From IMG/VR virus record IMGVR_UViG_3300011115_000378, positions 1-33,912 of that record: a stretch of 33,912 bases of DNA; one strand, written 5' to 3'. The position numbers and the translations under genes were made by a program. Source of the stretch: a virus. Numbering within the stretch: the stretch's first letter is position 1; every line of letters starts with the position of its first letter. Positions 4,136 to 33,912 of this stretch are shown piece after piece. The notes beneath the pieces were generated by a model, which ran no database searches, was not told the origin of the DNA, and saw only the letters and a list, made by a program, of their open reading frames with translations.

Positions 4136-4145
4136 AATTAATTCC

Positions 4146-5357
4146 TTACTTGATGTTGTATTGGCGATACTGTCGTGGTTGCCATACTGATGTTAAACGT
4201 GTGTGTCCACCACTCCATTTGCCTAGATTGTTTTGATCTTCAACAATGTTCCAAGCATTTTCATATTTTTGTTGATATACTGCGGCATCTTCTGCATTGT
4301 GGCGTTTGATATAATATTCACGCAGTGTGCTATATACATAACCTTCTGCCCATGTATTCAATACAGCATTGGTTTGAACAGTTTGATTTGTTAGTGTGAT
4401 ATCTGTGATTGTACCTGCTGTGGGAGTTGTTCCGCCTGTGGCAGTAAATGTAATGCCAGTACTACCAACTAAACTTGCTACTGTGTATACACCTGCACCA
4501 CCGCCTAAACTACCACTGCCTGCAGTAGCAATAATAGTATTACCAACGCTCAATCCACTATTACTGACCATGCCTGTGATACTGGCTGTCCAAGGACCAC
4601 TACCACTAATTGATCCCACAGTGCCAGTTGTGCTGATAACAGTATTTTGAACTGGACTAAACAACAATGGCCATGCTTTGTAGTAATACATGTTAATCAA
4701 ATCACCTTGAGCAATGTAAGGTAAGAATTGATACTTGTCATATACTTCACTGAATTTACCGCGGATAACTGCTGGCACGTTTACTGGTTGTAAGTATAAC
4801 TGTGCAATCATACCCTGTGTGATAATATCTCTGTCACCAATTCTATCATAGACAATCCATGGTCCAGTTTGGCTGGCAGCATTACCAGTTGTGCTAAACA
4901 CTAATGTGCCACTGACAGTGCCTGTGTTAGCCGTGTTCAATGTAATAGTGCTGCCAATACCACCACTGCCACTAATATTACTAACAACAGCACCTGTAGC
5001 AATACCAGTGCCGCTGACTACCATGTTAAGTTGTAATGCCTGTGCTGGCACTGAAGTTAATACAATGGTATAAGCACCACTACTGCCTGTGGCTGTAGCA
5101 GTAGTTGTAACTTGTTGTCCTTGTTTGAAAAACAATATGGGCTTGTTCATGTCTCCTGGAATAGGAATTCTACCATTGGCATCTGCTACGCCAATGTTTT
5201 CTGGTGCATATGGGTCACTGCGTAGTGCGGGCAGTTCAATGTTACGCATTGACAATTCTGCCATAAATATACATTTTTTGATTTCGGCGTCATTAGTTGA
5301 ACCAGTAAAGTCTTTGATAAAATCTACTAAGTCATTGGCTGAGGGGATTACAAACAT
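4146..5357 (-). CDS. Probable head-tail adaptor protein with two beta-domain inserts (403 aa)
   Basis: The start has a TAAGGAAATAG site. The N-terminal ~85 residues (MFVIPSANDLVDFIKDFTGS onward) and the C-terminal ~90 residues (an alpha-helical stretch with WAEGYVYSTLREYYIKRHNA) suggest a head-tail connector of the T7 gp11 / P22 gp4 functional type. This is inferred from size and position after the capsid block. Two Gly/Thr-rich beta modules interrupt it: about residues 86-160 (GTGIATGAVVSNISGSG) and about 235-325 (SGSGPWTASITGM to GGTTPTAGTITDITLT). The second is clearly related to part of the 289-aa protein at 15788-16657, and the first to an insert in the large fibre. An uninserted adaptor would be about 220 aa, so the inserts explain the unusual length. 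Confidence 0.6.
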   Translation of the reverse strand: MFVIPSANDLVDFIKDFTGSTNDAEIKKCIFMAELSMRNIELPALRSDPYAPENIGVADANGRIPIPGDMNKPILFFKQGQQVTTTATATGSSGAYTIVLTSVPAQALQLNMVVSGTGIATGAVVSNISGSGGIGSTITLNTANTGTVSGTLVFSTTGNAASQTGPWIVYDRIGDRDIITQGMIAQLYLQPVNVPAVIRGKFSEVYDKYQFLPYIAQGDLINMYYYKAWPLLFSPVQNTVISTTGTVGSISGSGPWTASITGMVSNSGLSVGNTIIATAGSGSLGGGAGVYTVASLVGSTGITFTATGGTTPTAGTITDITLTNQTVQTNAVLNTWAEGYVYSTLREYYIKRHNAEDAAVYQQKYENAWNIVEDQNNLGKWSGGHTRLTSVWQPRQYRQYNIK

Positions 5358-5373
5358 TTTCTATTTCCTTATT

Positions 5374-5934
5374 TTAACCTGTTCGTTGCGGATATGGTAC
5401 TGCAACTGGGATTGGTAATTTCCCGCCTGGATAACATACATAGGCAGGATATTCAGTTTCAACTACACGATAAAACTGTGCTTTCATAGTTCTATCATTT
5501 TTAAGTGCTGTCCAAGGAATACCACCAAAGTATTGATCACTGATACGAATACTAATAACTGTGGGCAACTCCATCCATTTGTATGTTAAATTACCATCAT
5601 CACCTATGGGTGCCATTGGATCTGGAATACCTAATTCTGCGGCATGTCTATAGTTTCTAACACGCTCTTTGACTTCTTCAATGTTTTGCTGTTCGCGGGT
5701 AATGAAGAACTTACCATCTTGACGTCCAGTAGTAACTTTGATGTTATTACCTTTGTTCCAACTTGTTCTGCTCCAATCACCTTTCATTGACTTATATAAG
5801 TCATCATTTTGCAATAACTTATCTGCTATGCCATTGTGATTGGTAATCATACCACCGTGATCTTGTCGGTAGTAGTTATAATTCTTTTCTGGATCTGTGT
5901 CGTCCAAATATTCTGGTCTATTAATATCATTCAT
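5374..5934 (-). CDS. Structural-region protein of unknown function (186 aa)
   Basis: I do not recognise this protein. The frame is open back to a TTG at 5961, but the ATG at 5934 (MNDINRPEYLDD) is preferred because the added residues are arbitrary and the upstream space is filled by a terminator and a [AC]TAAATA box. The protein is soluble and mixed charge, rich in Asp, Asn, Tyr and Trp, with no membrane segment. It has a Pro-rich tail (GGKLPIPVAVPYPQRTG). It is the first gene after the capsid terminator and precedes the adaptor, so a head-completion or connector-associated role is plausible. No strong Shine-Dalgarno site is visible before the ATG. Confidence 0.7.
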   Translation of the reverse strand: MNDINRPEYLDDTDPEKNYNYYRQDHGGMITNHNGIADKLLQNDDLYKSMKGDWSRTSWNKGNNIKVTTGRQDGKFFITREQQNIEEVKERVRNYRHAAELGIPDPMAPIGDDGNLTYKWMELPTVISIRISDQYFGGIPWTALKNDRTMKAQFYRVVETEYPAYVCYPGGKLPIPVAVPYPQRTG

Positions 5935-5941
5935 AGTTAAG

Positions 5942-5948
5942 TATTTAT
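5942..5948 (-). promoter_or_regulatory. ATAAATA box, candidate late-type promoter
   Basis: The minus-strand heptamer ATAAATA, within CATAAATAC, sits 8 bases before the ATG at 5934 and just downstream of the capsid terminator. That would restart transcription for the connector and fibre genes. It belongs to a set of eleven intergenic copies. Confidence 0.4.
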
Positions 5949-5970
5949 GCTGTTCAAACAAAGGCTCAGC

Positions 5971-5993
5971 AAAAAAGGGCCCGAAAGCCCTTT
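5971..5993 (-). terminator. Intrinsic terminator after the major capsid gene
   Basis: On the minus strand a perfect 7-bp stem AAAGGGC/GCCCTTT with a 6-base loop runs into six T residues (5976-5971). It begins about 28 bases after the capsid stop codon. This is the clearest transcription stop in the structural half and separates the packaging/capsid genes from the connector/fibre genes. Confidence 0.85.
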
Positions 5994-6021
5994 CTTGTAT
6001 TACATTTAATTCTATTAAGAA

Positions 6022-7194
6022 TTAAGGAGTAACGTCGCCTGCACCTAAGTTTACACGACTTACCAATGCCGCTGGGCGAGCACCTGGTAAAGAGGCTTGT
6101 GCTGTAGTGCCTGCTGTGATGTTGTTTAGAACGCCCACGCCTGCAGGGTTTCTGCAAATCAATGTACCTTCCATGATGAACTGATCCAATGAAGCGTCAG
6201 CATTACTGAATACTTCGTTGTTAGGACCTAGGTCACGTAGTGAACCCCACTGGATAACGTCTTCATTCAAGAAGAAGATTGCGTTAGCATTTACAGAATC
6301 CATGATCCAAGAATCAAAGATTTCGTATGTGTAGTTGAAGTCACCTTCATAAGTTTGAATTGTATCACCACGTGCTGAATCAACACGATTGATACCACGT
6401 GACTGAGCAATGTTATCGCTGATACTAGTGCGTAGACTTGTAGGAGCAACTACTGTGCGGATCTTAGCGTTGTAGCGTTGTTCAGCAACTGTTACCAATT
6501 GCTTGTATAATGCTGGGCTGAAGAACTGGTTAGTAAATGTTCCACTGTAGAACTGAGCACCGTTAGCATAAATCTGCAATGCGTTACTTGCTTGAACAGC
6601 AACGTCAGTAGATTCATTGTTGTAGAAAGAATCTAAACCGCTTGTTGTTCCAGAAGTTGTATTGAAAGATTGTGTGCCAGCGAATGAAGTCAATGAACCC
6701 ATACGACGACCAGTTTGACCACTTGGCAAGCCAGAGGCTGTGCCTGTTTGACCAGCATACTTAGTGCCGATTTGATCATTGCGAACCAATTGTAGTTCAA
6801 CGTCAAACATCAATTCAATCAATTGCTTGACTTCTTGATATGCTTGTGGATCACCACCAGATTGCATAACAGCGCGAGCAGTGCCGGAAGCGGCAATAAC
6901 TGTGCTGAAAATCTGTGTGTAGTTACCCAAGTTGTAACGCTGATTGCTCTGCGCTTGACTTGTAGCAACTGTAGCACCTTCAACCTGTGCTTGTACACCA
7001 GGTGTGCGATAGATGTCATCAGTCCATAAAGGCAAAGTTGAGTTAACTTTACGCTTCTTAGACATACACATGTTTAGAACAGGAGTATCATCTTTAACGC
7101 GGTTGGACACATCTAGGTCCAAATCTTTGACAACGATGTCGCTACCATATGCTGTAGTGCCGTTACCAATTTGACTTGTTGTAATTTCTGCCAT
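6022..7194 (-). CDS. Major capsid protein, SU10/DUF5309-like (390 aa)
   Basis: The ATG has a strong site (AAGGAG, six-base spacer), fitting a highly expressed gene. The N-terminal third carries features I associate with the SU10 MCP family (DUF5309; phages phiEco32/SU10): a PVLNM strand, LPLWTDD (about residues 54-60), then AQVEGATV and NYTQIFSTVIAASGTA (about 92-107), followed by helices with EVKQLIELMFDVELQLVRN. Length is right for that HK97-fold family. It forms the icosahedral shell. Its neighbours agree: the scaffold gene lies immediately upstream (20-bp gap) and a strong terminator immediately downstream. The family is named from remembered motif order. Confidence 0.88.
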   Translation of the reverse strand: MAEITTSQIGNGTTAYGSDIVVKDLDLDVSNRVKDDTPVLNMCMSKKRKVNSTLPLWTDDIYRTPGVQAQVEGATVATSQAQSNQRYNLGNYTQIFSTVIAASGTARAVMQSGGDPQAYQEVKQLIELMFDVELQLVRNDQIGTKYAGQTGTASGLPSGQTGRRMGSLTSFAGTQSFNTTSGTTSGLDSFYNNESTDVAVQASNALQIYANGAQFYSGTFTNQFFSPALYKQLVTVAEQRYNAKIRTVVAPTSLRTSISDNIAQSRGINRVDSARGDTIQTYEGDFNYTYEIFDSWIMDSVNANAIFFLNEDVIQWGSLRDLGPNNEVFSNADASLDQFIMEGTLICRNPAGVGVLNNITAGTTAQASLPGARPAALVSRVNLGAGDVTP

Positions 7195-7214
7195 TTTAGG
7201 CTCCTTAAATTAAA

Positions 7215-8378
7215 TTATCTACCTCTGCCCGACTTCAATCGTTGAAGTTGAGCCATTAAGAGGTTGTCTCCGGCTTTTTTGTCACCGGACTTGGCTTGTT
7301 CACGAAGTTTTTCAATGTTATCATTTGATCCTTTGCCAGTGTTGGAACTTCCTTTGCGACTAGTTAAAGCCGCCATAGAACTACCAGCACTCTTAGTAGA
7401 AGGTTTATCTCTATATCTTAGACCATCACGGACTAGGCTTAATAATGCTTCGTCACTGCTGATCAAATCTATATTTGGCACACCAGGAATTATTTCCTGT
7501 TTGGCGTGTGGCCACAACTTGCCTACCTTTTCACGTATTTCATTAAAGACATATTCATTTTTCAATTCCTTGTCTGTAAATGCTTTGCGTGAACTATCTA
7601 ACCTTTGGCTGACCTGCTGAGCACGAACCTGTCTAAACTGTTCCACTGCTGGCTGGATTTGATTAATCAAACCCTGTTGCTGGCGAATGTATTGTTCATT
7701 TTGATTCATACTTGCTTGGATACGGGCTCTTGCACCTGGATCCTGCGTTCTAGCCAATTGTTGTTGGAATGTAGTTTGATAATTTTGAGTTTTCAAAATC
7801 TCATCATACGCACCTTGCAACTTTGGTTGGATGGTAAACTCCATTGCTAGTGTTAAACCTTCCTGTCTGCTATAAGTCTCTTTTAGATACTCATCAAATT
7901 CAGCCTTTTGAACTTTAAGTTCTCTGGCTTCTTCATGTATTGCTGATCCTTGACCTAAAATACTTGCGGCTTTCTTAGCATCAATAACGACTTCTTTTCC
8001 ATTCTTCATGAACTTGAATTTAGCATTGGGATTAGTCTCCGCAAATTCAACAAAGTCAATTAACTCGTTTGCTTGAGAATCATTACTATCGGCGCTTACA
8101 GTTTCCTGGGCATCCGCTTCTTGACCGTCGCTGTCATATTCTGTGTCGTTGGTATCACCAACTTCGGCGTCAGCGTTTCCGCTGGGTGCCACAGGGTTAG
8201 ATGTTTCTTCTGCCACATCATCTACTCCTGTTGCAGTTGTTTCGGTAGCACCAATTTGATTACGCAGTGTGTTTTCACGCATTGCGGTCATTTTAGCGGC
8301 TATAGAATCCAAACTTGGGACTGCGCTTTGACCAGCGGCCGCACCAGTATCGGTGTTAGGACTTGTCGTTGTTTCCAT
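7215..8378 (-). CDS. Probable capsid scaffolding protein (387 aa)
   Basis: The start has an AAGGAAAATAA site. The protein has the classic scaffold build: a disordered acidic N-terminal region (about residues 45-105, very rich in Asp, Glu, Thr and Asn), a long Gln/Arg/Glu-rich helical or coiled-coil centre (about 160-270), and a basic Ser/Gly/Lys-rich C-terminus ending in a helix (NLLMAQLQRLKSGRGR). Such C-termini bind capsid subunits in P22-like systems. It lies between portal and capsid, the usual place. There is little sequence signature, so the call rests on position and architecture. It acts inside the procapsid and is expected to be absent from the mature virion. Confidence 0.75.
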   Translation of the reverse strand: METTTSPNTDTGAAAGQSAVPSLDSIAAKMTAMRENTLRNQIGATETTATGVDDVAEETSNPVAPSGNADAEVGDTNDTEYDSDGQEADAQETVSADSNDSQANELIDFVEFAETNPNAKFKFMKNGKEVVIDAKKAASILGQGSAIHEEARELKVQKAEFDEYLKETYSRQEGLTLAMEFTIQPKLQGAYDEILKTQNYQTTFQQQLARTQDPGARARIQASMNQNEQYIRQQQGLINQIQPAVEQFRQVRAQQVSQRLDSSRKAFTDKELKNEYVFNEIREKVGKLWPHAKQEIIPGVPNIDLISSDEALLSLVRDGLRYRDKPSTKSAGSSMAALTSRKGSSNTGKGSNDNIEKLREQAKSGDKKAGDNLLMAQLQRLKSGRGR

Positions 8379-8387
8379 TTATTTTCC

Positions 8388-8732
8388 TTAATTAATATCG
8401 GGCACTTCGTTAGTGCTTACGATACGGTTCTTTAAATAAACAGCCCGCTTAAGGCTGCTTACAAAATTGTCAATACCAGCAAGTTCATTGCTTACAGCAA
8501 TTCTTCTAGCATTGTCGTCTGGTTGATGACTGCGAATGGACGCTAATTCATCAGCAAGACTAAATTTAAAATGATGAACAAACATCGCGAGATCTTTGTT
8601 TTTCAATAATCCTTCAGCAAGACTACCATAATGTTTAACTTGGTCCTTTTGACTTGTAGTTAACTTACTGGGTTGACTTAGGTCAACTGTGAGTCTGCTG
8701 TTGTAAAATTCCACTGTGTCTTCGTTTATCAT
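8388..8732 (-). CDS. Small protein between portal and scaffold, function unknown (114 aa)
   Basis: The ATG at 8732 lies 32 bases after the portal stop; the gap holds a CTAAATA box. The protein is mostly helical and soluble: an N-terminal strand region with VEFYNSRLTVDL, then helices (VKHYGSLAEGLLKNKD, FKFSLADELASIRSHQ). No membrane segment or known motif is seen. The gene is followed 9 bases later by the scaffold ATG. Position suggests a role in head assembly, but I do not recognise a family. Confidence 0.72.
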   Translation of the reverse strand: MINEDTVEFYNSRLTVDLSQPSKLTTSQKDQVKHYGSLAEGLLKNKDLAMFVHHFKFSLADELASIRSHQPDDNARRIAVSNELAGIDNFVSSLKRAVYLKNRIVSTNEVPDIN

Positions 8733-8754
8733 ACTGTTCTATTCTATTATATGT

Positions 8755-8761
8755 TATTTAG
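8755..8761 (-). promoter_or_regulatory. CTAAATA box, candidate late-type promoter
   Basis: The minus-strand sequence GCTAAATAACAT lies in the 32-base gap between portal and the 114-aa gene, 22 bases before that ATG. The following TATAAT has no convincing -35 element. Confidence 0.4.
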
Positions 8762-8764
8762 CAA

Positions 8765-11047
8765 TTAGGAATATACTTTTGGATCGCCTGCTGCCATACT
8801 CATAAAATCTAGTTGCGACTCAGCATCTTGACCAGCAACTTCCATTTCTATCTGTTTTGCTTTGATATCATTTAAGTTGGCAACACTTAATTTCTGTTTG
8901 TCATCTGGACTTGGCTCTCTGCCTGCACTTGCTGCCTTACCTTGTTCAATCATTGCCGCTACTTCATCATCACTTGGCAAGTAAGTATTACAGTCTTTGA
9001 CACCCAATACGTATAGTGTATCTGCAAATGGCTTTTTAATCTTTTGATACATTTCAGGTGTCATTGTGCCTTGTCCAACTAAGTTAGTTAGTGCTGTGTA
9101 TAAATCATTTTGACACTTTTGAATAATCTGTAAACGACCCAATGCGTTTTCTTCACTTTGCATACCTAATGCTAGTTCTAAACGGATTTGCTTTCTATCA
9201 CAGAAGTCCATGTCATCCCAACTTTGATAATCCATGAACACTGGCTCTTTGTTTTCACCACATTGTTGTGCTAGTTTCTTAACACCATAATCATCACCGT
9301 ATTGAATTAATGTACGCCATACCAAGTATAGTGCTTCTTTCAATCCTTCTGCGCTGTTACGCACAGTATTGTCCTGAATGATTTGATTTGGACTTAGTGC
9401 CATTTGTAATTTGATACCGCTGTTACCTGGTGCCATAACTTCTGGATTGAATACATCCTGAGGAGTAGTCATACCAACCATGGCCATTGTGTCTTGTTGT
9501 ATGCGGTTCATAGCAACTTCTAAGAACTGCAAGTTGCCACTGGGAGGAGGCATTTGGTAAATGTCTTTTGCTGGATCAAATTTACTATCAAGAATAAAGA
9601 TAGCACTTTCGCCATCCTGCATCATTTCAAAGTCAACTCTGTCTGGCTTAACACCAATACGAGGAGTTGCTGTTAGTAAACCTAATTGTATTTCTGCACG
9701 GGCTGCTGATGTGTTATACTCTTGCATTGGAATAACTGATTCAGCAATACTCATACCATAGAAGTTGCCTGGTAGTGGTTTTGGACACATATTAGCCACA
9801 GGAATAAACTCTACTTCTCTAGCACTGATAATATAACTGCCTGAATAAATCAATTCAATTAGTTCTAGTTCGCCATCACCATCAATGTCATATTTGTTCC
9901 ATACTGTTACGATTGAAACTTGTCTTGAATCTGGATCTGCACTTGCGGCACTGCTTACAGGAATACCCATAACTGGCACACTATCACGTGCGTGAATTGC
10001 TAGATTGTTTAATACTGAACCTGCTTGGTAAGCACCATTCATATTGTATTCTGCGTGAACACGAAAGTGCTCAATGTCAATGCCTGGATATAGTTCAACT
10101 GCTTCTTGAATAGTCATTGGATCGTAGTAACCACAGAATGGTTGATCCTTCATCTCTGGCACTGTAGGATCACAGATCCAGTAGTGTTGAGCAATAGGAT
10201 GAAACTTAATATTGATTGAATAACCAGTTAGTTTATACTTGGCACTATAAATTGTATTGCGCTTGATAGCATCGGCGATAATCTGTTGTTGATTATCCAT
10301 TTCATTTAACTTCATGTCACTGACAGCAGTGGACATTGAGTCTTGATCAAACTCTTCTGGTGCTTGACGCATGGCAACATCAGCCAAATCCAACATTGAT
10401 TCTGCTGATTGTGCTTCTTGTTCACCCAATAATTGTTGTATCTCTGCCATGGCTTTTTCCATGTCAACGGAGATTTGACGCTTGCTTTGACGTAGTGTTG
10501 TTAATCCACTTTCAGCGGCTTGTAGTTCATAGGCTTTTAGTTGATCTAGAGTGCCTTCTGTTTCTACATAACGATTAATCTTTTCACGCACTGGCTTGAT
10601 CATCATCATACCATTTTTGTGCATGTTAGCATCCATGATCCAACGCTCTAAAATAAAGTGCGGATCATTCATTTGATTAACAACTTTGTTAACCATGTTA
10701 GTTGCTTGACGTGCGGCTATTTCATCATCTTCTGTGTCTGCTACAAATTCAAAGTTAATTTCCCCATTGGGCATAAGTCCTTTGGCAATAACTGCTGTGG
10801 CATAATCCACAACAGGCTTAACGCTGGGATGAATATAGTCAATACCATTTACAGGTGCTGTACTGTCTGTAACTGCTAAACACAAATAGTGATAATCACT
10901 AGCACGGTTAACAGCATTCTTAGTTCCTAAATAGCGCAGATAACTTGCCATCTTGACATCCATTTGATTCTTCATACGCACAAAATTAGCGTTGGTTTTT
11001 CTATTTTGATTGATGTCACTGACAGGGGTATTCTTGATTTCCAACAT
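8765..11047 (-). CDS. Portal protein (760 aa)
   Basis: The ATG has an AAGGA site nine bases upstream. It is a large soluble protein (760 aa, P22-like in size, larger than T7 gp8). Features fit a portal: an N-terminal helical stretch, KGLMPNGEINFEF (about residues 89-102), a long coiled/helical insert rich in Gln and Glu (about 165-260), a wing-type segment with VTVWNKYDIDGDGELELIEL (about 380-400), and a clip/stem region with PKPLPGNFYGMSIAESVIPMQ (about 424-444). The C-terminal ~60 residues are helical. It forms the dodecameric ring at the head vertex through which terminase packages DNA. It lies between terminase and scaffold, with a conserved 43-aa gene directly upstream. Assignment is from gene order, length and motif style. 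Confidence 0.85.
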   Translation of the reverse strand: MLEIKNTPVSDINQNRKTNANFVRMKNQMDVKMASYLRYLGTKNAVNRASDYHYLCLAVTDSTAPVNGIDYIHPSVKPVVDYATAVIAKGLMPNGEINFEFVADTEDDEIAARQATNMVNKVVNQMNDPHFILERWIMDANMHKNGMMMIKPVREKINRYVETEGTLDQLKAYELQAAESGLTTLRQSKRQISVDMEKAMAEIQQLLGEQEAQSAESMLDLADVAMRQAPEEFDQDSMSTAVSDMKLNEMDNQQQIIADAIKRNTIYSAKYKLTGYSINIKFHPIAQHYWICDPTVPEMKDQPFCGYYDPMTIQEAVELYPGIDIEHFRVHAEYNMNGAYQAGSVLNNLAIHARDSVPVMGIPVSSAASADPDSRQVSIVTVWNKYDIDGDGELELIELIYSGSYIISAREVEFIPVANMCPKPLPGNFYGMSIAESVIPMQEYNTSAARAEIQLGLLTATPRIGVKPDRVDFEMMQDGESAIFILDSKFDPAKDIYQMPPPSGNLQFLEVAMNRIQQDTMAMVGMTTPQDVFNPEVMAPGNSGIKLQMALSPNQIIQDNTVRNSAEGLKEALYLVWRTLIQYGDDYGVKKLAQQCGENKEPVFMDYQSWDDMDFCDRKQIRLELALGMQSEENALGRLQIIQKCQNDLYTALTNLVGQGTMTPEMYQKIKKPFADTLYVLGVKDCNTYLPSDDEVAAMIEQGKAASAGREPSPDDKQKLSVANLNDIKAKQIEMEVAGQDAESQLDFMSMAAGDPKVYS

Positions 11048-18042: not shown

Positions 18043-18474
18043 TTACTCCAATGTTGATCTAATCATCCAAATAGATTTTTCTAAATCTAATGCTTGGTCC
18101 TGGGCATAGTTGCTGATTTCTTCCAGGTTTTCTTCACTGGCTATTGTGATTAAATCTTTATAATCTTCTAGCAAGTGTTCTAAGTCCATCATCACTGCTT
18201 CTAACAATTCATCTGCTGTGCCTTCAATGGCATCAGTGGGTATTGTAGCATCAGTGATAACATCCATAATGTTGCAGGGCATGTATTCCTGCATGGTGCG
18301 TAAGATTTCACCAATCTTATCAATCTCTGCTTGTCTACGTTCGTAAACACCTTGAAGTAACTTATGGTCACTTCTAAAGTTACGTCCAGTTACGTTTACA
18401 TGTGCGGCATGACTTCTAAAGTATGCTACAAAGTTATTGTTAAACACTAATGTTAGTTGTTCTGCTGTTGTCAT
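18043..18474 (-). CDS. Dps-like ferritin-fold protein (143 aa)
   Basis: The ATG overlaps the stop of the 238-aa gene (ATGA). Helix A-B sequence H25-VNVTGRNF-(x3)-H37 and, further on, D52-(x3)-E56 align with the Dps di-iron site. Compared with E. coli Dps, His51, His63, Asp78 and Glu82 are matched by His25, His37, Asp52 and Glu56, while Asp67 is replaced by Gln41. The rest is four-helix in character (MMDLEHLLEDYKDLITIASE, then YAQDQALDLEKSIWMIRSTL). Dps proteins form 12-mer shells that oxidise iron and bind DNA. Here it is somewhat short, lacks a basic N-terminal tail and sits inside the virion gene block, so it may be packaged or may protect DNA during infection. Confidence 0.8.
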   Translation of the reverse strand: MTTAEQLTLVFNNNFVAYFRSHAAHVNVTGRNFRSDHKLLQGVYERRQAEIDKIGEILRTMQEYMPCNIMDVITDATIPTDAIEGTADELLEAVMMDLEHLLEDYKDLITIASEENLEEISNYAQDQALDLEKSIWMIRSTLE

Positions 18475-21665: not shown

Positions 21666-22628
21666 TTAAATTAATTCAGGCAACTTAGTATAGTCTACTT
21701 GATAGTATCCTGAACTGTGTACACTGACTGCATCAGCATATTTTGTGTTTAGCAAATCTTGTGCCATTGCGCCTACTTGTGGTTCCTTGTCCCATACATA
21801 GTTATAAGTATAGACCTTAATTCCATCTACATCTTTGACATGTTTAATATTTTCTTTTAACCTAACGTCACTGAAGAATGGAGTAAATGGTAATACCTTA
21901 CCAATTAGGTCATTCCAGTCTGCGCCTTTTTGCTCACTAGTGCCTACTGCGCTAGGATATGGAGTAGTGCCTAATGTTGGAGCAATGCTGTAACGAGCAG
22001 CCAAGTTTTTGTAGTATTGATCTGTTGGACTTGTTGACGCTGCTTGTTTGGCCTGTGCCGCAGCCAATGCGCGATCCATGCCGCCATAACCAATTTGAGC
22101 AAGTTGATTACCCACTGCTTGTCTTTGTCCAGCAACATCACGTTGTACCTGTGCCGCTGTGTTAGCCATTAAACTTTGATTCTGCGATGCTAAATTCTGT
22201 CCTGCTAATGCTTGTCTGGCAGAACCTAAATTACCTGCGCCACCAAACTGTGCTTGTTGGTTAGCAACGTTTTGCATATACTGTGCCTGTGCTGGCTGTA
22301 ATGCCGCTCTTACTTGATTGGCTTCATAGTCAGGAGCAAATAAACTTTGTAAGCCACTAACACCTGTGCGTAGTGCTGATTCGCCTACACCACCAGTTGT
22401 TTCTTGAACCTGTCCTGCTATACCGCCAACGTTTTGTGCAGCCTGTAGCATGCCAGGAGCATTGATATTGTAAATGTCCTCAGCGCCCTGCATACCTCTG
22501 CGGTAATATGGCAATGCTTGTTCAATTTTGAACTTGCTGAGAGCATCCATTTCTGCTTGTTGACTAGCAGGTATGTTAACTGATTTTGTGGTAGTTGGTC
22601 CACCGAATAGATCATCAAATAAACTCAT
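21666..22628 (-). CDS. Virion protein with C-terminal S74-type chaperone domain (320 aa)
   Basis: The start has AAGGAAAAGAT. Residues 1-250 are Gln/Ala-rich and helical (LQPAQAQYMQNVANQQAQFG, AGQRQAVGNQLAQIGYGGMD). The C-terminal ~70 residues are a peptidase S74-like intramolecular chaperone: SDVRLKENI (Ser253 to Lys258, the spacing of the Ser-Lys self-cleavage dyad), then YNYVWDKEPQVGAMAQDLLN and a final YYQVDYTKLPELI. S74 domains usually trimerise and clip themselves from fibres. Here the domain is on a helical, non-fibre protein and somewhat short. It lies between the 1040-aa Hint protein and the transglycosylase gene, a tail or ejection-apparatus position. Confidence 0.75.
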   Translation of the reverse strand: MSLFDDLFGGPTTTKSVNIPASQQAEMDALSKFKIEQALPYYRRGMQGAEDIYNINAPGMLQAAQNVGGIAGQVQETTGGVGESALRTGVSGLQSLFAPDYEANQVRAALQPAQAQYMQNVANQQAQFGGAGNLGSARQALAGQNLASQNQSLMANTAAQVQRDVAGQRQAVGNQLAQIGYGGMDRALAAAQAKQAASTSPTDQYYKNLAARYSIAPTLGTTPYPSAVGTSEQKGADWNDLIGKVLPFTPFFSDVRLKENIKHVKDVDGIKVYTYNYVWDKEPQVGAMAQDLLNTKYADAVSVHSSGYYQVDYTKLPELI

Positions 22629-22659: not shown

Positions 22660-25600
22660 TTACATTGCGTTGCCTGTGCCCGCGCCTGCTCCTGTGCCAC
22701 CGCCATCACCGCCACCTGATCCACCGCCATCACCTCCACCACCTTGGTTCTGGTTAGACATCAGTGCGTATTCATATTGTGCTTTAATGTTGTTCACAGT
22801 TTCCATATCACCAGCAGCCATTGCCGCTGCCAATCTCTGTGCCATATCATTGCCTAATACACTGGCTACTTGTTGAACTTCTGCTGAAGTCATATTATAA
22901 TTTGTTGGTGTTACAGGTCCTGCAACTGGAGGAGTATATGCTTGTAGTTGGTTAACAGGAGCCTGTGCCAAACTTGGATCATATGCTTGAACTCTTGTTG
23001 CTGGAGTAAATTGTTCTGGAGTATAACGTCCAGCAATAATGTCTTCATAGTCTTGAGCACTCATTGGTGCCGCAACACCTTGAGCACCCCATGGTGTTTC
23101 TGGTGCTGCCACTGCATTGTATGCCTGTGCGTTAAATGTTGGTCCTGCTTGGAATCCATGTCCACCCCAGAAGTATTTGCTTTGTGCGTCATTGGTTGTA
23201 TTGTAAAACGGTGTTGGTTCCATCATACCAGGATTCAATCCAACACCTGTGCTTAATGTTGTTGGAGGAGTTGTAACTACTGGAGGAACAACTACAGGAG
23301 GTTTAGGTGTCACTGGCGGTAATACCACAGGAGGAACTATCACTGGAGGAGGAACAACTGGTGGCACTACTGGTGGCACTGGTGGCACTGGTGGTGGTGT
23401 TATAACTATTTCAGGAACTACTGGAGGCACTACAGGAGGTAATGGACTCTTATTGTGACTTAACAAGCCTTGACAAATGTAAGTATGTGCATCATCAATA
23501 GTAATCATTACTACTGGACCAGGTTCAACTTGTTCAACACTCTTAACTACTTTACCGCTGAGTATATCTCTAAATTTAACATCTTTGGCTGTTACCCAAG
23601 AATCTACTTTATCAAAGAACTTGTGATCATAACTACAAACAATTTCTGTGTCTTCAAACTTAATCTTTAATCTTTGTGCATTAGGAATAATCTCTGTGTG
23701 CGTTACAGGATGATCTCCCCAAGCCATGGTATGTTCATGCTGTGTTCTAACAACATCACCCACGGCTAATTCTCCAGCAGGCTTTTTACTGCCATCGGCT
23801 AGATGTATTAACATTTCTGGACTTGGACAAGTTGGTTTAGGTGCCACAATTTCAACTGTAGGAACAACTGGAGTAACTGGTTTGTCTGCAACTATTTCAA
23901 CAACTGGAACATCTGGCACAACTGGCTTAACTGGTTTATCAGCAACTACTTCTACAACTGGAACTGTGTCATCTTTCTTTGTTACTTTAGTGTCAACTAC
24001 TTCTACTGTAGGCACTGTAGGAATTACTGGCTTGACTACTTTATCACCTGTGACTGTTACTGTTGGCGTAGTAGTATCATCTGTCTTTGTTACTTTATCG
24101 CCTGTTATTTTTATTTCAGGAACTGGTGTTTTTAAATTAGTATTCAACTGTGTGGTAACTGCTGCCAATATGTTTGGATCTACCATAGTTGGAACTACGG
24201 GTGCTGTTACAGCAGGATTGGCTGTGCCAGTTACGTTAACTGTTTCTATGCCAGGAGTTACTGGTGCTACGCCAGTGCCAGCGCCAGTGTTTTCTATAAA
24301 CTGACTAATTTGTTGATTACTCAATCCCTGTGCTTTCAAACTATCAATTAAAGCATTGTCAGCCAATTCATTGAAGTCAATGCCTGCTCCTGGTATAGCA
24401 TCTACTGGAGGAACATAACCTAAGTCTGCGGCACTGGCATTCTCTAACCATTGTCCAATTTGTGCGTTGCTTAGACCCTGTGCTTTTAAACTATCAATAA
24501 CACCTGTCTCTGCTAGGTCGGCAAAGTTAACTGTTGATCCATCTATGGCACCACCGAATATACTGCTACCGCCTCCGGCTGTTGGTGTGCCACCTTGTAG
24601 GTATCCACCCAATGCACCACCAGCACCGCCTAACAATGCTCCTTTAAGAACATCGCCACCTTGAGCGCCTGTTAGTGCTCCGCTGATGATAGCGTTGCCC
24701 AATGCGTTTGTTGCTACTGCACCTGCACCTGTGCCTAATAATGCATTGCCCAATAAACCGCCTGCGCCTGTGGCTGCTAAGGCTAGTTGAACTATGGGCA
24801 TCCATTGTCCTGCATCACTGCTACTCTGTGCTGATGTATAGAAATATGGATTACCTTTGTCATCAAACTGAACACGATAACCTGTGTTGCCTTTACCAGT
24901 ATAAGTGCCACCGAATGCGTCACCTGTTTGGCGCTCACCATAGGTATTACCCACAGTTTGTCCTGTGAGTTTATTACCAAACGTTTCTATCTTTTGATTG
25001 CCTGTAAATGTTTGATTACCTTGTTCATCATAACTGTATGTTGGTTCTTCTTTGACAATCTTACCGAACTGGCTGATGTCTGTGATACCAATGTCACCTA
25101 AGATCCTTGCCATGTCTGCGGCATTCTTTTCTGCACTTCCAAATCCTTCACCAGTCCATTTACTTGTTGTGCCTTGACCTAAAATCTGTTCTACCAAACT
25201 CTTTGGCTGTACTACAGGAGTTATCGTTGGAGCAACTGGAGCAGTAGGCGCCATTGGTGCGCTATACTGTGGCTTAGGTGGAGGAGCAGGTGGCTCATAC
25301 ATTAGTGGTGATTTAATATCAGGAGCAATGGGTCTTGGTGGAATAATCTCTACCGGAGCAGGAGGAGGCTCTGCCTGTGTTTTAGTCTGTGGTTGTGAGA
25401 AATAATCTAGTTCACCAAAGTTGCCAACATTACTACCAAATGATGTATCTTCTAATACTGTGCCACCGCCTCTGGAATAGTTAACAACTGGTTCTGGATA
25501 AACTGGTGCTCGTTCAACGGGTGCTGGCGGTGCATAGACTGTGGGTGCAACTGGTGCTTGAGGAGGCTCAGGAGGTGTATAAGTCTGTGGCTGAGGTTGT

Positions 25601-25782
25601 TGATAATATGGCGTTACATTTGCTTGACTAAAGTAATTATTAATCGTGCCAGTGTCATAGCCTGTTGCTCTAGTCAAGTCATCTAGACTTACTCCATACT
25701 GCTGTGCCGCTGCCGCAATGGCTGCTGGATTTCCAATGTTTGCTTGAACATAGGCTTGAATGTCTGCGTCGCTTACTGCCAT
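22660..25782 (-). CDS. Large proline-rich virion protein with embedded Hint (intein-like) domain (1040 aa)
   Basis: Domains in order: a small helical start (DADIQAYVQANIGNPAAIAA, about residues 5-50); a Pro/Gln-rich linker (about 55-200); a folded part with KWTGEGFGSAEKNAADMARI (about 205-330); a Gly/Ala-rich hydrophobic stretch (about 330-400); two tandem modules with IDSLKAQGLSN (about 417-500); Val/Lys/Pro repeats of the VVEIVADKPV type (about 550-650); a Hint domain from Cys652 to Asn777; a pure Pro/Val linker; and a globular C-terminus with a Gly/Asp tail. It is a central tail or internal-head component by position. The Hint domain has a Cys start and His776-Asn777 end but Lys at +1, so complete splicing is unlikely; cleavage at one or both ends could cut the protein in two. 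Confidence 0.8.
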   Translation of the reverse strand: MAVSDADIQAYVQANIGNPAAIAAAAQQYGVSLDDLTRATGYDTGTINNYFSQANVTPYYQQPQPQTYTPPEPPQAPVAPTVYAPPAPVERAPVYPEPVVNYSRGGGTVLEDTSFGSNVGNFGELDYFSQPQTKTQAEPPPAPVEIIPPRPIAPDIKSPLMYEPPAPPPKPQYSAPMAPTAPVAPTITPVVQPKSLVEQILGQGTTSKWTGEGFGSAEKNAADMARILGDIGITDISQFGKIVKEEPTYSYDEQGNQTFTGNQKIETFGNKLTGQTVGNTYGERQTGDAFGGTYTGKGNTGYRVQFDDKGNPYFYTSAQSSSDAGQWMPIVQLALAATGAGGLLGNALLGTGAGAVATNALGNAIISGALTGAQGGDVLKGALLGGAGGALGGYLQGGTPTAGGGSSIFGGAIDGSTVNFADLAETGVIDSLKAQGLSNAQIGQWLENASAADLGYVPPVDAIPGAGIDFNELADNALIDSLKAQGLSNQQISQFIENTGAGTGVAPVTPGIETVNVTGTANPAVTAPVVPTMVDPNILAAVTTQLNTNLKTPVPEIKITGDKVTKTDDTTTPTVTVTGDKVVKPVIPTVPTVEVVDTKVTKKDDTVPVVEVVADKPVKPVVPDVPVVEIVADKPVTPVVPTVEIVAPKPTCPSPEMLIHLADGSKKPAGELAVGDVVRTQHEHTMAWGDHPVTHTEIIPNAQRLKIKFEDTEIVCSYDHKFFDKVDSWVTAKDVKFRDILSGKVVKSVEQVEPGPVVMITIDDAHTYICQGLLSHNKSPLPPVVPPVVPEIVITPPPVPPVPPVVPPVVPPPVIVPPVVLPPVTPKPPVVVPPVVTTPPTTLSTGVGLNPGMMEPTPFYNTTNDAQSKYFWGGHGFQAGPTFNAQAYNAVAAPETPWGAQGVAAPMSAQDYEDIIAGRYTPEQFTPATRVQAYDPSLAQAPVNQLQAYTPPVAGPVTPTNYNMTSAEVQQVASVLGNDMAQRLAAAMAAGDMETVNNIKAQYEYALMSNQNQGGGGDGGGSGGGDGGGTGAGAGTGNAM
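23452..23829 (-). other. Hint domain (A-type BIL-like) inside the 1040-aa protein
   Basis: These 126 codons encode residues 652-777. They begin CPSPEMLIHLADGS and contain a block-B-like S717-x2-H720 (CSYDHKF). They end with the DDAHTYICQGLLSHN block F/G, His776-Asn777. No homing-endonuclease insert is present. The next residue is Lys778 rather than Cys, Ser or Thr, which is the hallmark of A-type bacterial intein-like (BIL) domains. Proline-rich repeats flank it on both sides, forming exposed linkers. Confidence 0.85.
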
Positions 25783-25806: not shown

Positions 25807-26922
25807 TTAACGTTTTATAACCTGTGCTGTGAAACTTCTAAATCCATAATATGCTATTGCAATAGGTTGAATGTTAGGACTGGTTGTTGGATTGTTTGGA
25901 TCATAATATTGATTGTTAAAATATATCTCAAACGTATACAAGAAGTATCCCAATCCAGGATTGTCTATAACATTATTAAATGTATACGATTCAGGTCTAA
26001 AATATGTATAACCATCATATATCACAGTGTCAAATAATGTATATGGAACCGTAACTAAGTTTCCATCCAACTCCCATTCGTATCCATTATACACATATGG
26101 AAATGCTAATGCTCCATTGGGCAATGTTGTAGCATTCTTTGCTTTATATCTGTTTATTCTTAATTCATAGGTCACAGGATCTAATCCAGGATCTATACTA
26201 GTATATGTAGGATTGTTGATATATCCTTTAAAAGGTGCTTGACAAGTAATAAACACTCTGTCTGTTGGACCATTCACGCTGACAGGTGCAAACAAGTCCG
26301 TAACTATGTTTTGTTGTTGCCAACTTATTTGTCCACCTGAAGAATATGCTGTCCATGTTTGGGCACCATCTAATCTTAACAAACGCAGTGTGCTGATAAA
26401 TGGACCAGAACTATGAACTGCTATTCTATAATCTCCATTGTATATTGCTGGAGTCACTCCTGATATTGTTACCTTTTGATTTAACGCAAAACAGTTTTCA
26501 GGACCATTAGTTGTGAATATAAATTCCGTGTTTGTAGTCAATGGAGTAGTAATGTATGTTCTATTAACTGTAATGTCTACATCAATGATATTGTTAGTCA
26601 CACTTGTAATATTTGTGATAACAACGTTGGGAGTTGTGATACCTGGCGGTGTTGTTTGGTAAAAGTCTATGCTACTTAACTGTGGCCAATAGTTAACATT
26701 ACTTGGACTTGCGACATTACCTGTGACCGTAACATTATTAGTAAACGGTGCTGCCATGGCATTAGTAAGCATATCATATCTAAATGATGTTACTACATTG
26801 TTGGCAGGATCAGCAGTTTTACTTACGCCTTCAAAGTTTTGTCCTAAACCTGTTGGTCCACTAAGAAGATAATTAACTGCTTCAACAACAGCATCAGGAT
26901 TGTCTATTGGATATTGACTCAT
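25807..26922 (-). CDS. Tail-region structural protein with beta inserts (371 aa)
   Basis: The ATG overlaps the previous stop (TAATG), so it is coupled to the 639-aa gene. The N-terminal part (NPDAVVEAVNYLLSGPTGLG, then QNFEGVSKTADPANNVVTSF) is of a type I associate with marine podovirus structural proteins of unknown role. Around residues 120-205 there is a beta insert (TNTEFIFTTNGPENCFALNQ, KVTISGVTPAIYNGDYRIAV), similar in style to one in the 639-aa protein. The last 100 residues are Tyr/Asn/Pro-rich beta sheet. Likely part of the tail hub or fibre attachment; no enzyme motif. Confidence 0.72.
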   Translation of the reverse strand: MSQYPIDNPDAVVEAVNYLLSGPTGLGQNFEGVSKTADPANNVVTSFRYDMLTNAMAAPFTNNVTVTGNVASPSNVNYWPQLSSIDFYQTTPPGITTPNVVITNITSVTNNIIDVDITVNRTYITTPLTTNTEFIFTTNGPENCFALNQKVTISGVTPAIYNGDYRIAVHSSGPFISTLRLLRLDGAQTWTAYSSGGQISWQQQNIVTDLFAPVSVNGPTDRVFITCQAPFKGYINNPTYTSIDPGLDPVTYELRINRYKAKNATTLPNGALAFPYVYNGYEWELDGNLVTVPYTLFDTVIYDGYTYFRPESYTFNNVIDNPGLGYFLYTFEIYFNNQYYDPNNPTTSPNIQPIAIAYYGFRSFTAQVIKR

Positions 26923-28841
26923 TATCTATCATCTTCCACTTGTGTGTACTGCCATGTTATTGCTGAACATTGCCAAGTGTCTGTATAACTTACATCACTT
27001 ATTTCAATGTTGTTTACACGGAATGCATTTTGATTAATCTGCGCCCAAGGATTACTTGTATCTAATGTCACTGTTATTGGTGTTGATACACTGCTGGATG
27101 ATCCCACTGAGTTGGCACCTTCTATGGTAATGTCAATACTGCCTGTTGAAGGAACTATGACTACGCCACGGCTATCCACATTGTTGACTTCAGGTAGGAT
27201 ACGATGAACCATCATCTTGCCGCTGTAGTCTTTTAATAACTTGATATTGTTTTGTCTATACACTGATGTTATGTTGCCATTTGGATTACCTGTAGTAGTT
27301 AGAAACGCTGTGCCTTGATCTTTCATAACAAGTTTTTTACTGGCAGCACCTTGAACATAAACAACTGTTCTACTTGCTGGGTCATTCTTCCAAGTACTTG
27401 AACCAGTGTCATAATACCATACTGGACTTTCCACAGTGGAGATAGCATTTGAGACATCACGTGGGGGATTCCATATATCTAAATCATATCTGTATGCCAA
27501 CATCTTATTTGGCACACCATTTGTTGCCGCTGTGGTTGGATAGTATATTTCAATTTGATTCTTATTGGTGTTTACTTCCATGAATATTTTATCAGTATGT
27601 AAAGGATCAACTTGGTCAAAGAACCAATTCTTTACACGTTGATTACCTAGACCTGTAAACTCATTACCATCAAATACCCATATATCTCTGGCATCAATAC
27701 CATATACCATTCTGTCAGTATTAACACTACAACCAGGATTCAATAGTCCACGACCAGTGTTAAACAATCTTACACCAATGATTGGTGCTGATGTTGTTGA
27801 ATAGTTTAATGGACTGAACACAACTGTGTCCCAATAACTACAAATGAATAGTTGTCCGTTGCTGGGAAAAGCATCTTGAACAGGTCCACGCAATGGAACT
27901 TCAAGTTGGTTGGCCACGTTTTGAATTGTTGGTTCCCATGTTGAGGGCATTTGATTTAAGCCAAAACTTTGACTCCATTGCACTGTGGCAGGGAACCTAG
28001 TTGCTACATTGTCTAAGGTTGTAATTGTTAAATCTCCAGCAACCAATATACTTCCAACATTTGGTGTTGAATACATACGCAGAAAGCCTGCTTTCAAACT
28101 TTTCCATACTGTGGGCAAATAGTTCCACACATAACTTTGATTGACAGTGCAACTTGTGCCTAATGTAATGCCTGTCAAAGCACAGGTTATCTCTACATAG
28201 GTTGTTGTACTTGCTGTGACTTTCCAGTTAGCATTGAATGCCGCAGTGGTAGCACCTTGAACTAGAACATAGCCACCAATATCAAAAGGTATTGTTGCCT
28301 GTGCTGTGGTAAAGGTTATTCTTACTGTGCCTGTTGTTGGGTATGTTATTGCTGTAAATGCCAGTTCTGTCTTAGTGCCATAACGAACCATTACAGGAGC
28401 ACCCGTGCCTTCATCAGGCCAAAACATAGGATTACCTACATTGTCATTGAACACTGGCACTGTGCCGTTCCATGATTCTGTGATATTAGTTGCCAGTGTA
28501 TAACCTGTGATTGAGGGCTGTATGGTAGCACCAACGTTGGGATTGATCTTAGTCCAAGTTAAGTCTTTACTGGCATACCAATCTCCGGCTGTGTTGGCAA
28601 CAACAAACCAAAAGAATCCGTCTTGTCTATAACTGCCAGTGACAAATATAGGAGTGCCAGGCACTGTGGCCAATATCTCTTTGTCTCCAAACACTGATTT
28701 CAATCCACGAACATCAGTTTCAACATTACTACCTTCATTGTATTCATTAGGTCCAAGTGCGGTACTAGGCACATCAGGAGTATAACTCATCTTGCTGAAA
28801 GGTTGTCTTACTTCGTTTAAGGGATTCTTTATATTGGCCAT
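26922..28841 (-). CDS. Tail nozzle / DNA-stabilisation-like protein (639 aa)
   Basis: A large beta-rich protein with no membrane segment. The N-terminal phrase NEYNEGSNVETDVRGLKSVF (about 32-52) and repeated strands ending in Trp/Phe (GSYRQDGFFWFVVANTAGDW, VYGIDARDIWVFDGNEFTGL) fit beta-propeller nozzle proteins, the functional class of P22 gp10 or T7 gp12. A small beta insert (TIPFDIGGYVLVQGATTAAF, about 183-235) interrupts it. It is the first gene of the long late run, after the tRNA, with a possible promoter in the 80-base gap. The Shine-Dalgarno site is weak (GGAA four bases before the ATG). The fold call is inference from pattern and position. Confidence 0.65.
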   Translation of the reverse strand: MANIKNPLNEVRQPFSKMSYTPDVPSTALGPNEYNEGSNVETDVRGLKSVFGDKEILATVPGTPIFVTGSYRQDGFFWFVVANTAGDWYASKDLTWTKINPNVGATIQPSITGYTLATNITESWNGTVPVFNDNVGNPMFWPDEGTGAPVMVRYGTKTELAFTAITYPTTGTVRITFTTAQATIPFDIGGYVLVQGATTAAFNANWKVTASTTTYVEITCALTGITLGTSCTVNQSYVWNYLPTVWKSLKAGFLRMYSTPNVGSILVAGDLTITTLDNVATRFPATVQWSQSFGLNQMPSTWEPTIQNVANQLEVPLRGPVQDAFPSNGQLFICSYWDTVVFSPLNYSTTSAPIIGVRLFNTGRGLLNPGCSVNTDRMVYGIDARDIWVFDGNEFTGLGNQRVKNWFFDQVDPLHTDKIFMEVNTNKNQIEIYYPTTAATNGVPNKMLAYRYDLDIWNPPRDVSNAISTVESPVWYYDTGSSTWKNDPASRTVVYVQGAASKKLVMKDQGTAFLTTTGNPNGNITSVYRQNNIKLLKDYSGKMMVHRILPEVNNVDSRGVVIVPSTGSIDITIEGANSVGSSSSVSTPITVTLDTSNPWAQINQNAFRVNNIEISDVSYTDTWQCSAITWQYTQVEDDR

Positions 28842-33445: not shown

Positions 33446-33912
33446 TTACGCTCCTACTGGCACTACTGTTAAAATAACACTGGGGATTGCTGGCACCACA
33501 CCTGCTGCCGCAACATAGTCTAAAACAACTGCTGTGCCATCACTCGCCCAAGCAAGTTCATAATAGTCTCCTGCTGCCGCACTGACAATATAGTTCCACG
33601 CTGCCATAATTCTATCACCGTTGCCAGCAATTCTGGTATCACCTGCTGAGTCGGCAACATTAGCACCATTCTTCTTTAACCAAATAAATGCGTTGTGTGC
33701 TCCACCTGATGTTTGATTTAACTGAGCACTGAACTGAATGTTATATACTCCAGCATTACTCATTGTAATACGAGTAAGTGTTGTGCCATTAGTGACAATA
33801 CTAATACCATTGCTGATACCTGTGTTATTAAATGACATCAAGTTTTCAGCGTTGGCCACAGGATTGGTTTGATCCTGTGTGCTGTATGCTTCAATATATT
33901 GTCTGCCATAAC
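33446..33912 (-). CDS. Large tail fibre protein, C-terminal part (continuation of the gene at 1-2822)
   Basis: This is the 3' end of the fibre gene, open to the right edge of the window. The internal Met at 33859 is not a start, because the same frame reads through it from 2822 on the circle. The last ~110 residues (from about ITMSNAGVYNIQFSAQL, then WLKKNGANVADS) look like the C1q/TNF-like beta-jelly-roll tips found on phage fibres, a likely receptor-contact domain. The stop TAA lies two bases before the ATG of the 61-aa membrane-protein gene, so the two are co-transcribed and probably coupled. Confidence 0.85.
   Translation of the reverse strand, partial: YGRQYIEAYSTQDQTNPVANAENLMSFNNTGISNGISIVTNGTTLTRITMSNAGVYNIQFSAQLNQTSGGAHNAFIWLKKNGANVADSAGDTRIAGNGDRIMAAWNYIVSAAAGDYYELAWASDGTAVVLDYVAAAGVVPAIPSVILTVVPVGA
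33786..33912. repeat. Terminal direct repeat (assembly overlap), right copy
   Basis: This is the exact copy of positions 1-127. Removing it leaves a 33,785-bp circle. Confidence 0.95.

Follow-up and report, generated by a model that had tools for sequence, protein, structure and literature searches.

Passages of a published study of type A BILs describe a reaction in which Cys1 forms a thioester, cyclization of Asn brings about cleavage, and ligation possibly proceeds through the freed α-amine (PMC4031507); ligation by way of an α-amine requires no Lys. Parts of a second report state that the domain BIL2 forms an isopeptide bond to the amine of a lysine (PMC8616854). Excerpts of other articles describe BILs in hypervariable regions of proteins (PMC7765530) and Hint domains in polymorphic toxins (PMC3482391). 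The occurrence of Hint domains in phage proteins is not in itself new, since names in BFVD already carry the word Hint for other phage proteins and genes of phage NCTB are annotated as encoding intein-domain proteins. Our search of open-access PMC found no published account of the phage Hint family described below or of its lysine. Here, we compare with these systems a Hint domain encoded by a 33,912-base IMG/VR virus record, the whole of which was analyzed and is designated the window.

The window carries an exact terminal repeat of 127 bases (positions 1-127 and 33786-33912) and is therefore probably a complete, terminally redundant genome. A gene at 3-2822 and a reading frame at 33446-33910 have coding sequence in common, which indicates that the record closes on itself. 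The gene that harbors the Hint lies among genes for virion structural families (Table 1), and residues 194-331 of its product match the gene located directly after the portal-type gene of MW202710. A search of the host protein against PHROGs returned no match. An earlier note on this DNA had called the host a virion structural protein; the gene does lie in a phage structural module, and we regard its product as a putative virion protein on the strength of its structural neighbors and the position of its MW202710 relative next to a portal-type gene. The S74 end of the protein encoded next to the Hint gene is short and represents another domain type known for self-processing. Elsewhere in the window, positions 18043-18474 (minus strand) encode a protein that matches the DNA-binding family phrog_3636 (E = 7e-27) and, weakly, a starvation-inducible regulator; this protein is presumably Dps-like.

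Table 1 Features of the Hint locus, with positions in the window
Feature	Position	Strand	Basis
Host protein, 1040 aa, putative virion protein	22660..25782	-	ORF; neighbors are virion structural families
Hint domain, residues 652-777 (126 residues)	23452..23829	-	Residues, Pfam, profile search, AlphaFold, Foldseek, VIA-align
Codon of C652 (Cys1), by homology the nucleophile of the N-S acyl shift	23827..23829	-	Translation
Block B, S717-Y-D-H720	23623..23634	-	Translation and alignment
Block F His766 in AHTYIC	23485..23487	-	Translation and alignment
Block G His776-Asn777 (His776, 23455-23457; Asn777, 23452-23454)	23452..23457	-	Translation and alignment
+1 Lys778, conserved across family	23449..23451	-	Translation and family comparison
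Pro/Val-rich repeats before Hint (bounds approximate)	23830..24180	-	Read from sequence and L007/L006 comparison
Pro/Val-rich repeats after Hint (bounds approximate)	23240..23439	-	Read from sequence and L007/L006 comparison
Stretch missing from L007: Hint plus Lys-Ser-Pro-Leu	23440..23829	-	blastn of gene against L007
Next gene downstream of host gene: virion structural family, Peptidase_S74 (endosialidase chaperone) end	21666..22628	-	PF13884, 9.4e-6; phrog_6121, 2.5e-14
Second gene upstream of host gene: virion structural family	26922..28841	-	phrog_3287, 1.1e-22

All hallmarks of HINT domains are present in the window Hint: Cys/Ser at position 1, (T/S)xxH in block B, His in block F, and His-Asn in block G. 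Translation of the reading frame agrees with the earlier note, which had described an intact Hint with Cys652, an S-x2-H block B, and His776-Asn777 followed by Lys, placed it between Pro-rich repeats (the flanks are Pro/Val-rich), and given the sizes of the N- and C-terminal fragments as 651 and 263 amino acids. Structure prediction, which the note had proposed as a check, yielded an AlphaFold model with a pLDDT of 91.2 (input alignment of 68 rows, the window's included). Foldseek searches with this model retrieved Tetrahymena BIL2 first (E = 3e-12, TM 0.82), followed by DnaB inteins and a Clostridium BIL. In VIA-align, a variant of the SspDnaB mini-intein (Z 20.1) tied with BIL2 (Z 19.8, rmsd 2.1 over 136 residues); the best 50 rows were Hint-fold entries with Z scores of 14.7 to 20.1. 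A profile of Hint relatives searched against PDB found BILs and inteins and detected BIL2 by sequence at E = 7e-13. The Pfam family PT-HINT (PF07591) matched the whole host protein at E = 3.1e-5 and 24.7 bits, below the cut-off of 27.7 bits; when the record was searched in six frames, the score exceeded the cut-off, at 29.7 bits. By its modeled fold, the window Hint belongs to the HINT superfamily.

Position +1 is occupied by Lys778 rather than Cys, Ser, or Thr, and we therefore rejected the classification of the domain as a class 1 intein; a His-Asn end without Cys, Ser, or Thr at +1 is the arrangement of A-type BILs. The location of the domain in a Pro-rich linker of a phage structural-module protein is also unlike the usual habit of class 1 inteins, which occupy a conserved site in an essential enzyme. 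Pfam found no ubiquitin-like flanks of the BUBL/BIL2 type in the host protein, the flanks of which are Pro-rich repeats, and no domain at its cut-off downstream of the Hint, where an uncharacterized toxin might still lie. A pretoxin Hint that releases a toxin is not favored for the window, given that phage relatives without the Hint share the sequence downstream of it.

These two close relatives, L006 and L007, encode the same host protein without the Hint; their best segments are 79% and 81% identical, and searches of both records revealed no Hint. When the host gene was compared with L007 by blastn, homology ended at base 1953 of the coding sequence, the last before Cys1, and restarted at base 2344, which defines the inserted unit as Cys1 to Asn plus Lys-Ser-Pro-Leu. 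L007 has six other bases at this position, and the comparison with L006 gave looser bounds (1909 and 2356). Judged from the L007 comparison, the +1 Lys lies within the inserted unit. RNA folding at the left boundary disclosed nothing. Since both halves of the protein are found in one chain in these two close relatives, a permanent split of the host into two pieces, as the earlier note had envisioned, is not favored. No Hint was present in 44 other loci with similarity to the N-terminal half of the host protein, of which 26 have a complete 3′ end; the 501-residue query for this search stops before the Hint and thus does not bias the result against it. VrlC-type proteins exhibit a pattern similar to that of the window host: four cultured cyanophages have a short or Pro/Arg-rich stretch between two conserved halves, and in that place uncultured relatives carry a Hint together with additional sequence. 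VrlC is described in passages of one study as a baseplate component (PMC7029224).

Relatives of the window Hint were gathered by profile scans of IMG/VR, and residues after His-Asn were part of no search pattern; AHTYIC was itself a search pattern, so its invariance in the first scans is partly an artifact. The members of a 68-domain set are as little as about 26% identical in pairwise comparison and form 30 groups at 60% identity. Cys1, the His residues of blocks B and F, and His-Asn are conserved in the set of 68-69 domains, and of the 104 distinct family domains with an untruncated 5′ side, 102 have Cys1. Over 45 close, overlapping pairs, dN/dS has a median of 0.16, by which measure the family is under purifying selection. 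This selection, together with the intact active-site residues, led us to reject the possibility of a decayed intein.

The proteins that host these domains are diverse. In 72 of 83 loci, the sequence has more than 40 residues ahead of the Hint; the N-terminal flanks of these 72 form up to 21 clusters, although BLAST clustering may split remote kin. A PHROGs scan of 23 host representatives matched 5 to phrog_358 (DUF4815/VrlC type) and 6 to tail families (tail fiber phrog_5616, central tail fiber J phrog_31, tail proteins phrog_1101 and phrog_376, and, for one and weakly, phrog_1330); the other 12 had no structural or tail match. The Hint may be N-terminal, internal, or C-terminal and often lies in Pro- or Gly-rich linkers. 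Proteins with N-terminal Hints (L130, L133, L135-L138) start with Met-Gly/Ala-Cys, such that the N-side part consists of only two residues. C-terminal Hints have tails of 5-14 residues and, in the shortest case, the L286 group, end in SHN-Thr-Lys-stop, after which a new reading frame begins. Some regions that follow the Hint (L111, L113, L139, L141-L145) resemble DUF4214 by eye, which Pfam supports for L122 only, located on the same contig as L145.

The number of Hints per protein ranges from one to four. A first check of 15 Hint-bearing records found one match in each; in a second check of 17 records, L265 had four matches, L259 and L163 two each, L197 one strong match plus two weak ones in another ORF, and L223 two pieces of a single match. 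L259, L152, L153, and L163 encode two-Hint proteins. Outside IMG/VR, the GenBank fecal phage record MT835519 contains a family member with HN-Ile-Lys, and the other GenBank phage matches among those listed (about a dozen examined) look like inteins or more distant Hints. Two scans of genome contigs with narrow patterns found no bacterial or archaeal relatives.

A lysine near His-Asn is characteristic of the family. In 106 distinct domains with an HN end, Lys is found at +1 in 74, at +2 in 27, at +3 in 1, and at +4 in 2, and is absent from the first five residues in 2; position +1 or +2 is thus Lys in 101 of 106. To our knowledge, A-type BILs have no fixed +1 residue, and in this respect the family departs from them. 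The 106 domains are distinct Cys1-to-Asn sequences, related to one another, that comprise those of the window and MT835519, with the rest from IMG/VR. They exclude seven outgroup loci (L051, L088, L089, L206-L209); L223-L233, which are related to an NCTB domain (9 distinct sequences, each with Lys at +1); and, as lacking HN, the first domain of a tandem array (two variants plus a cut copy) and L181, which is cut by the contig end. A scan with patterns from the N-terminal half only, many contigs of which had appeared in earlier scans, produced 69 loci; Lys was at +1 or +2 in 56 of the 60 with a correctly assigned end, and the remaining 9 belong to the tandem array and were resolved separately.

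By comparison, the background frequency of Lys at residues +3 to +22 is 4%. The 53 Lys codons at +1 in the set of 68 are AAA in 34 cases and AAG in 19. Neither Cys nor Ser occurs at +1 in the 106 domains, and Thr occurs in two, each time followed by Lys. When Lys is at +2, the +1 residue is aliphatic in 23 of 27 domains and otherwise Thr or Tyr; these domains also have shorter tails (set of 68; Mann-Whitney p = 6e-8, uncorrected for relatedness; 8 of the tails are truncated where the locus stops). A quick tree of 80 rows was built from which residues after Asn were excluded; it has few columns and many open forks. On this tree, the +2 state requires seven changes, at least three of which are forced by starred, well-supported branches. 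The seven changes indicate that Lys is retained when its place shifts. Because the Lys is conserved, lies inside the inserted unit, and on the tree has switched repeatedly between +1 and +2, we consider it a probable participant in the reaction; the +1 Lys is not a decayed splice site. A salt bridge from the Lys to the near-invariant Glu of T-x-H-E-x-T was weakened as the sole reason for conservation, given that L133 and L135-L138 (Gln) and L204 (Gly) keep the Lys without the Glu.

The tandem array consists of four Hints in one protein, set in poly-Pro linkers (L264-L268, L270-L273, and L276, the first Hint of which is cut), and its first pair exhibits complementary loss of His-Asn and Cys1. 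In L264, L265, and L271, domain 1 keeps Cys1 and has Ser-Arg-Thr-Val-Lys in place of Ser-His-Asn, with Val-Lys at the matching place; domain 2 lacks Cys1 and retains His-Asn, which is followed by Arg-Arg. Only 2 of the 104 domains with an untruncated 5′ side lack Cys1, and the same 2 are alone in having no Lys within five residues. Both are variants of one lineage, and the joint loss therefore counts as one event. The pattern suggests that Lys acts in concert with the Cys1 thioester rather than in Asn cyclization.

Lys was found at +1 or +2 in none of eleven phage inteins and BILs that served as an outgroup (0/11). Their +1 residue is Cys in L051, L207, L300, and L304, Ser in L088, L301, and L303, Thr in L208 and L302, and Ala in L206 and L209; the HN of L301 and L302 lies beyond the matched part and was assigned by motif. 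In phage NCTB (LT598654; L210), three genes of the tail region are annotated as intein-domain proteins (3420-7334, 8698-9159, and 9159-10679). BN7874_132 and BN7874_136 have HN-Ala, and BN7874_135, a 153-residue protein with a short Hint, has no clear Cys1 and ends HN-Lys-Val-Asp. BN7874_135 speaks against a strict link between Cys1 and Lys. Distant phage Hints from IMG/VR (L223-L233) have HN-Lys in all 11 loci; together with BN7874_135, they show that HN can be followed by Lys in domains beyond the family as well, chiefly NCTB-type phage Hints.

The data thus comprise a fold match, intact active-site residues, a conserved Lys, the bounds of an insertion, and purifying selection. Tentatively, and with slightly less than even confidence, we favor a model in which the window Hint is an active, phage-type domain of BIL layout that uses the Lys after its terminal Asn as the acyl acceptor. 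Acyl transfer to Lys and subsequent Asn cyclization is the simplest reading of the joint retention of Cys1, His-Asn, and the adjacent Lys. Cys652 would attack the carbonyl of Thr651 to form a thioester with the assistance of block B His720, after which attack by the side-chain amine of Lys778 would join the 651-residue first part to Lys778 through an isopeptide bond. Cyclization of Asn777, assisted by His776 and His766, would then free the 126-residue Hint; the roles of the His residues are borrowed from inteins. The expected product is a 914-residue isopeptide-spliced protein, in which a branched lysine within the Pro-rich linker would connect the two halves and which may be put to use in virion assembly. 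In relatives with a C-terminal Hint, the reaction would remove the Hint and leave a short Lys tail on. BIL2, the top Foldseek match, provides a precedent for an isopeptide to lysine and supports Lys as acceptor. Several points count against such a role: the amine of lysine is mostly protonated at neutral pH, three Cys1-bearing domains place their Lys no nearer than +3 or +4, HN-Lys is shared with phage Hints outside the family, and the BIL2 precedent is limited by its acceptor in a flanking domain and by its tie with the SspDnaB variant. It is somewhat less likely than not that tailed phages possess a widespread class of splicing domains that form a Cys1 thioester, ligate through the side-chain amine of a +1 or +2 lysine, and finish with Asn cyclization to generate isopeptide-branched virion proteins or self-removed end caps; this class would stand beside intein classes 1, 2, and 3 and would operate in virion assembly.

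Cleavage without ligation is nearly as likely as acyl transfer to lysine. An ordinary A-type BIL, which we consider a doubtful but serious candidate, would use the Cys thioester and Asn cyclization to cut at its N- and C-terminal ends, the freed α-amine would bring about minor ligation, and the Lys would only tune rates or folding. The window Hint has all of the A-type residues, and BIL2 and the Clostridium BIL 2LWY have the same fold. Passages on type A BILs report splicing in which a free amino group attacks and cleavage products dominate (PMC4031507). This mechanism requires no particular +1 residue, yet Lys is nearly constant at +1 or +2; moreover, L006 and L007 encode both halves as a single chain without the Hint. 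The earlier note had also read the domain as an A-type BIL; the layout agrees and would in principle allow cutting at either end or transfer of one end to an amine, but the note had taken as the mere absence of a splicing residue a Lys that is a conserved feature. It is improbable that the Hint acts in trans as a device for covalent attachment, passing the thioester of the first part to an amine (of lysine or another group) on a second virion subunit or a host-surface molecule. The matches of some hosts to tail fiber, central tail fiber J, other tail families, and DUF4815/VrlC would suit such a device, as would the conjugation of BIL2 to other substrates that is reported in parts of one study (PMC8616854); the conserved Asn with its adjacent Lys points instead to a reaction in cis. 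The patchy distribution of the Hint (0/44 other host-family loci) and the diversity of its hosts might reflect a small, mobile, mini-intein-like passenger tolerated in linkers, which we consider very unlikely inasmuch as 126 residues leave no room for a homing endonuclease and the active-site residues are kept under a low dN/dS at linker sites from which the domain could easily be lost. Least credible is an inert Hint fold kept for binding, which the fold and linkers alone would permit, in view of the retention of Cys1, the block B and F His residues, and His-Asn despite the low identity within the family.

Our analysis offers a testable rule for a phage Hint family with several tail-protein hosts, in which the lysine after His-Asn is almost as conserved as the catalytic residues. 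If the Lys is the acyl acceptor, as we favor, phages would make lysine-branched proteins without an outside enzyme, which would account for completion of the reaction by Hints that have no Cys, Ser, or Thr at +1 and might provide compact, ATP-free ligation tools. If the domains only cleave, they would still point to self-processing of structural proteins in many uncultured phages.

Among known systems, PT-HINT is the nearest Pfam family and is likewise preceded by an N-terminal part and followed by another region; it differs in that the window's scores straddle its cut-off (24.7 and 29.7 versus 27.7 bits) and no Pfam toxin domain lies downstream. The NCTB-type Hints resemble the family as Hint domains in phage genes, with HN-Lys in L223-L233 and BN7874_135. 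However, L223-L233, which are 30-33% identical to the NCTB domain, form with it a separate group on the tree, and BN7874_132 and BN7874_136 have HN-Ala. A-type BILs, of which we take the solved Clostridium thermocellum BIL (PDB 2LWY) to be one, share Cys1, the His-Asn end, and the lack of Cys, Ser, or Thr at +1, whereas the phage family keeps Lys at +1 or +2 and has phage proteins as hosts. BIL2 of the Tetrahymena thermophila BUBL1 locus (PDB 6Y75 and 6TMM) differs in its ubiquitin-like flanks, its ciliate host, and its low identity of about 21%; its acceptor lysine is placed in the downstream flanking ubiquitin-like domain and, in the passages concerned, is not said to be +1 (PMC8616854). It is nevertheless the top match of the window Hint in Foldseek and profile searches and tied for the best in VIA-align, and by entry title its ends are Cys1 and Asn143 (both mutated to Ala in the entries).
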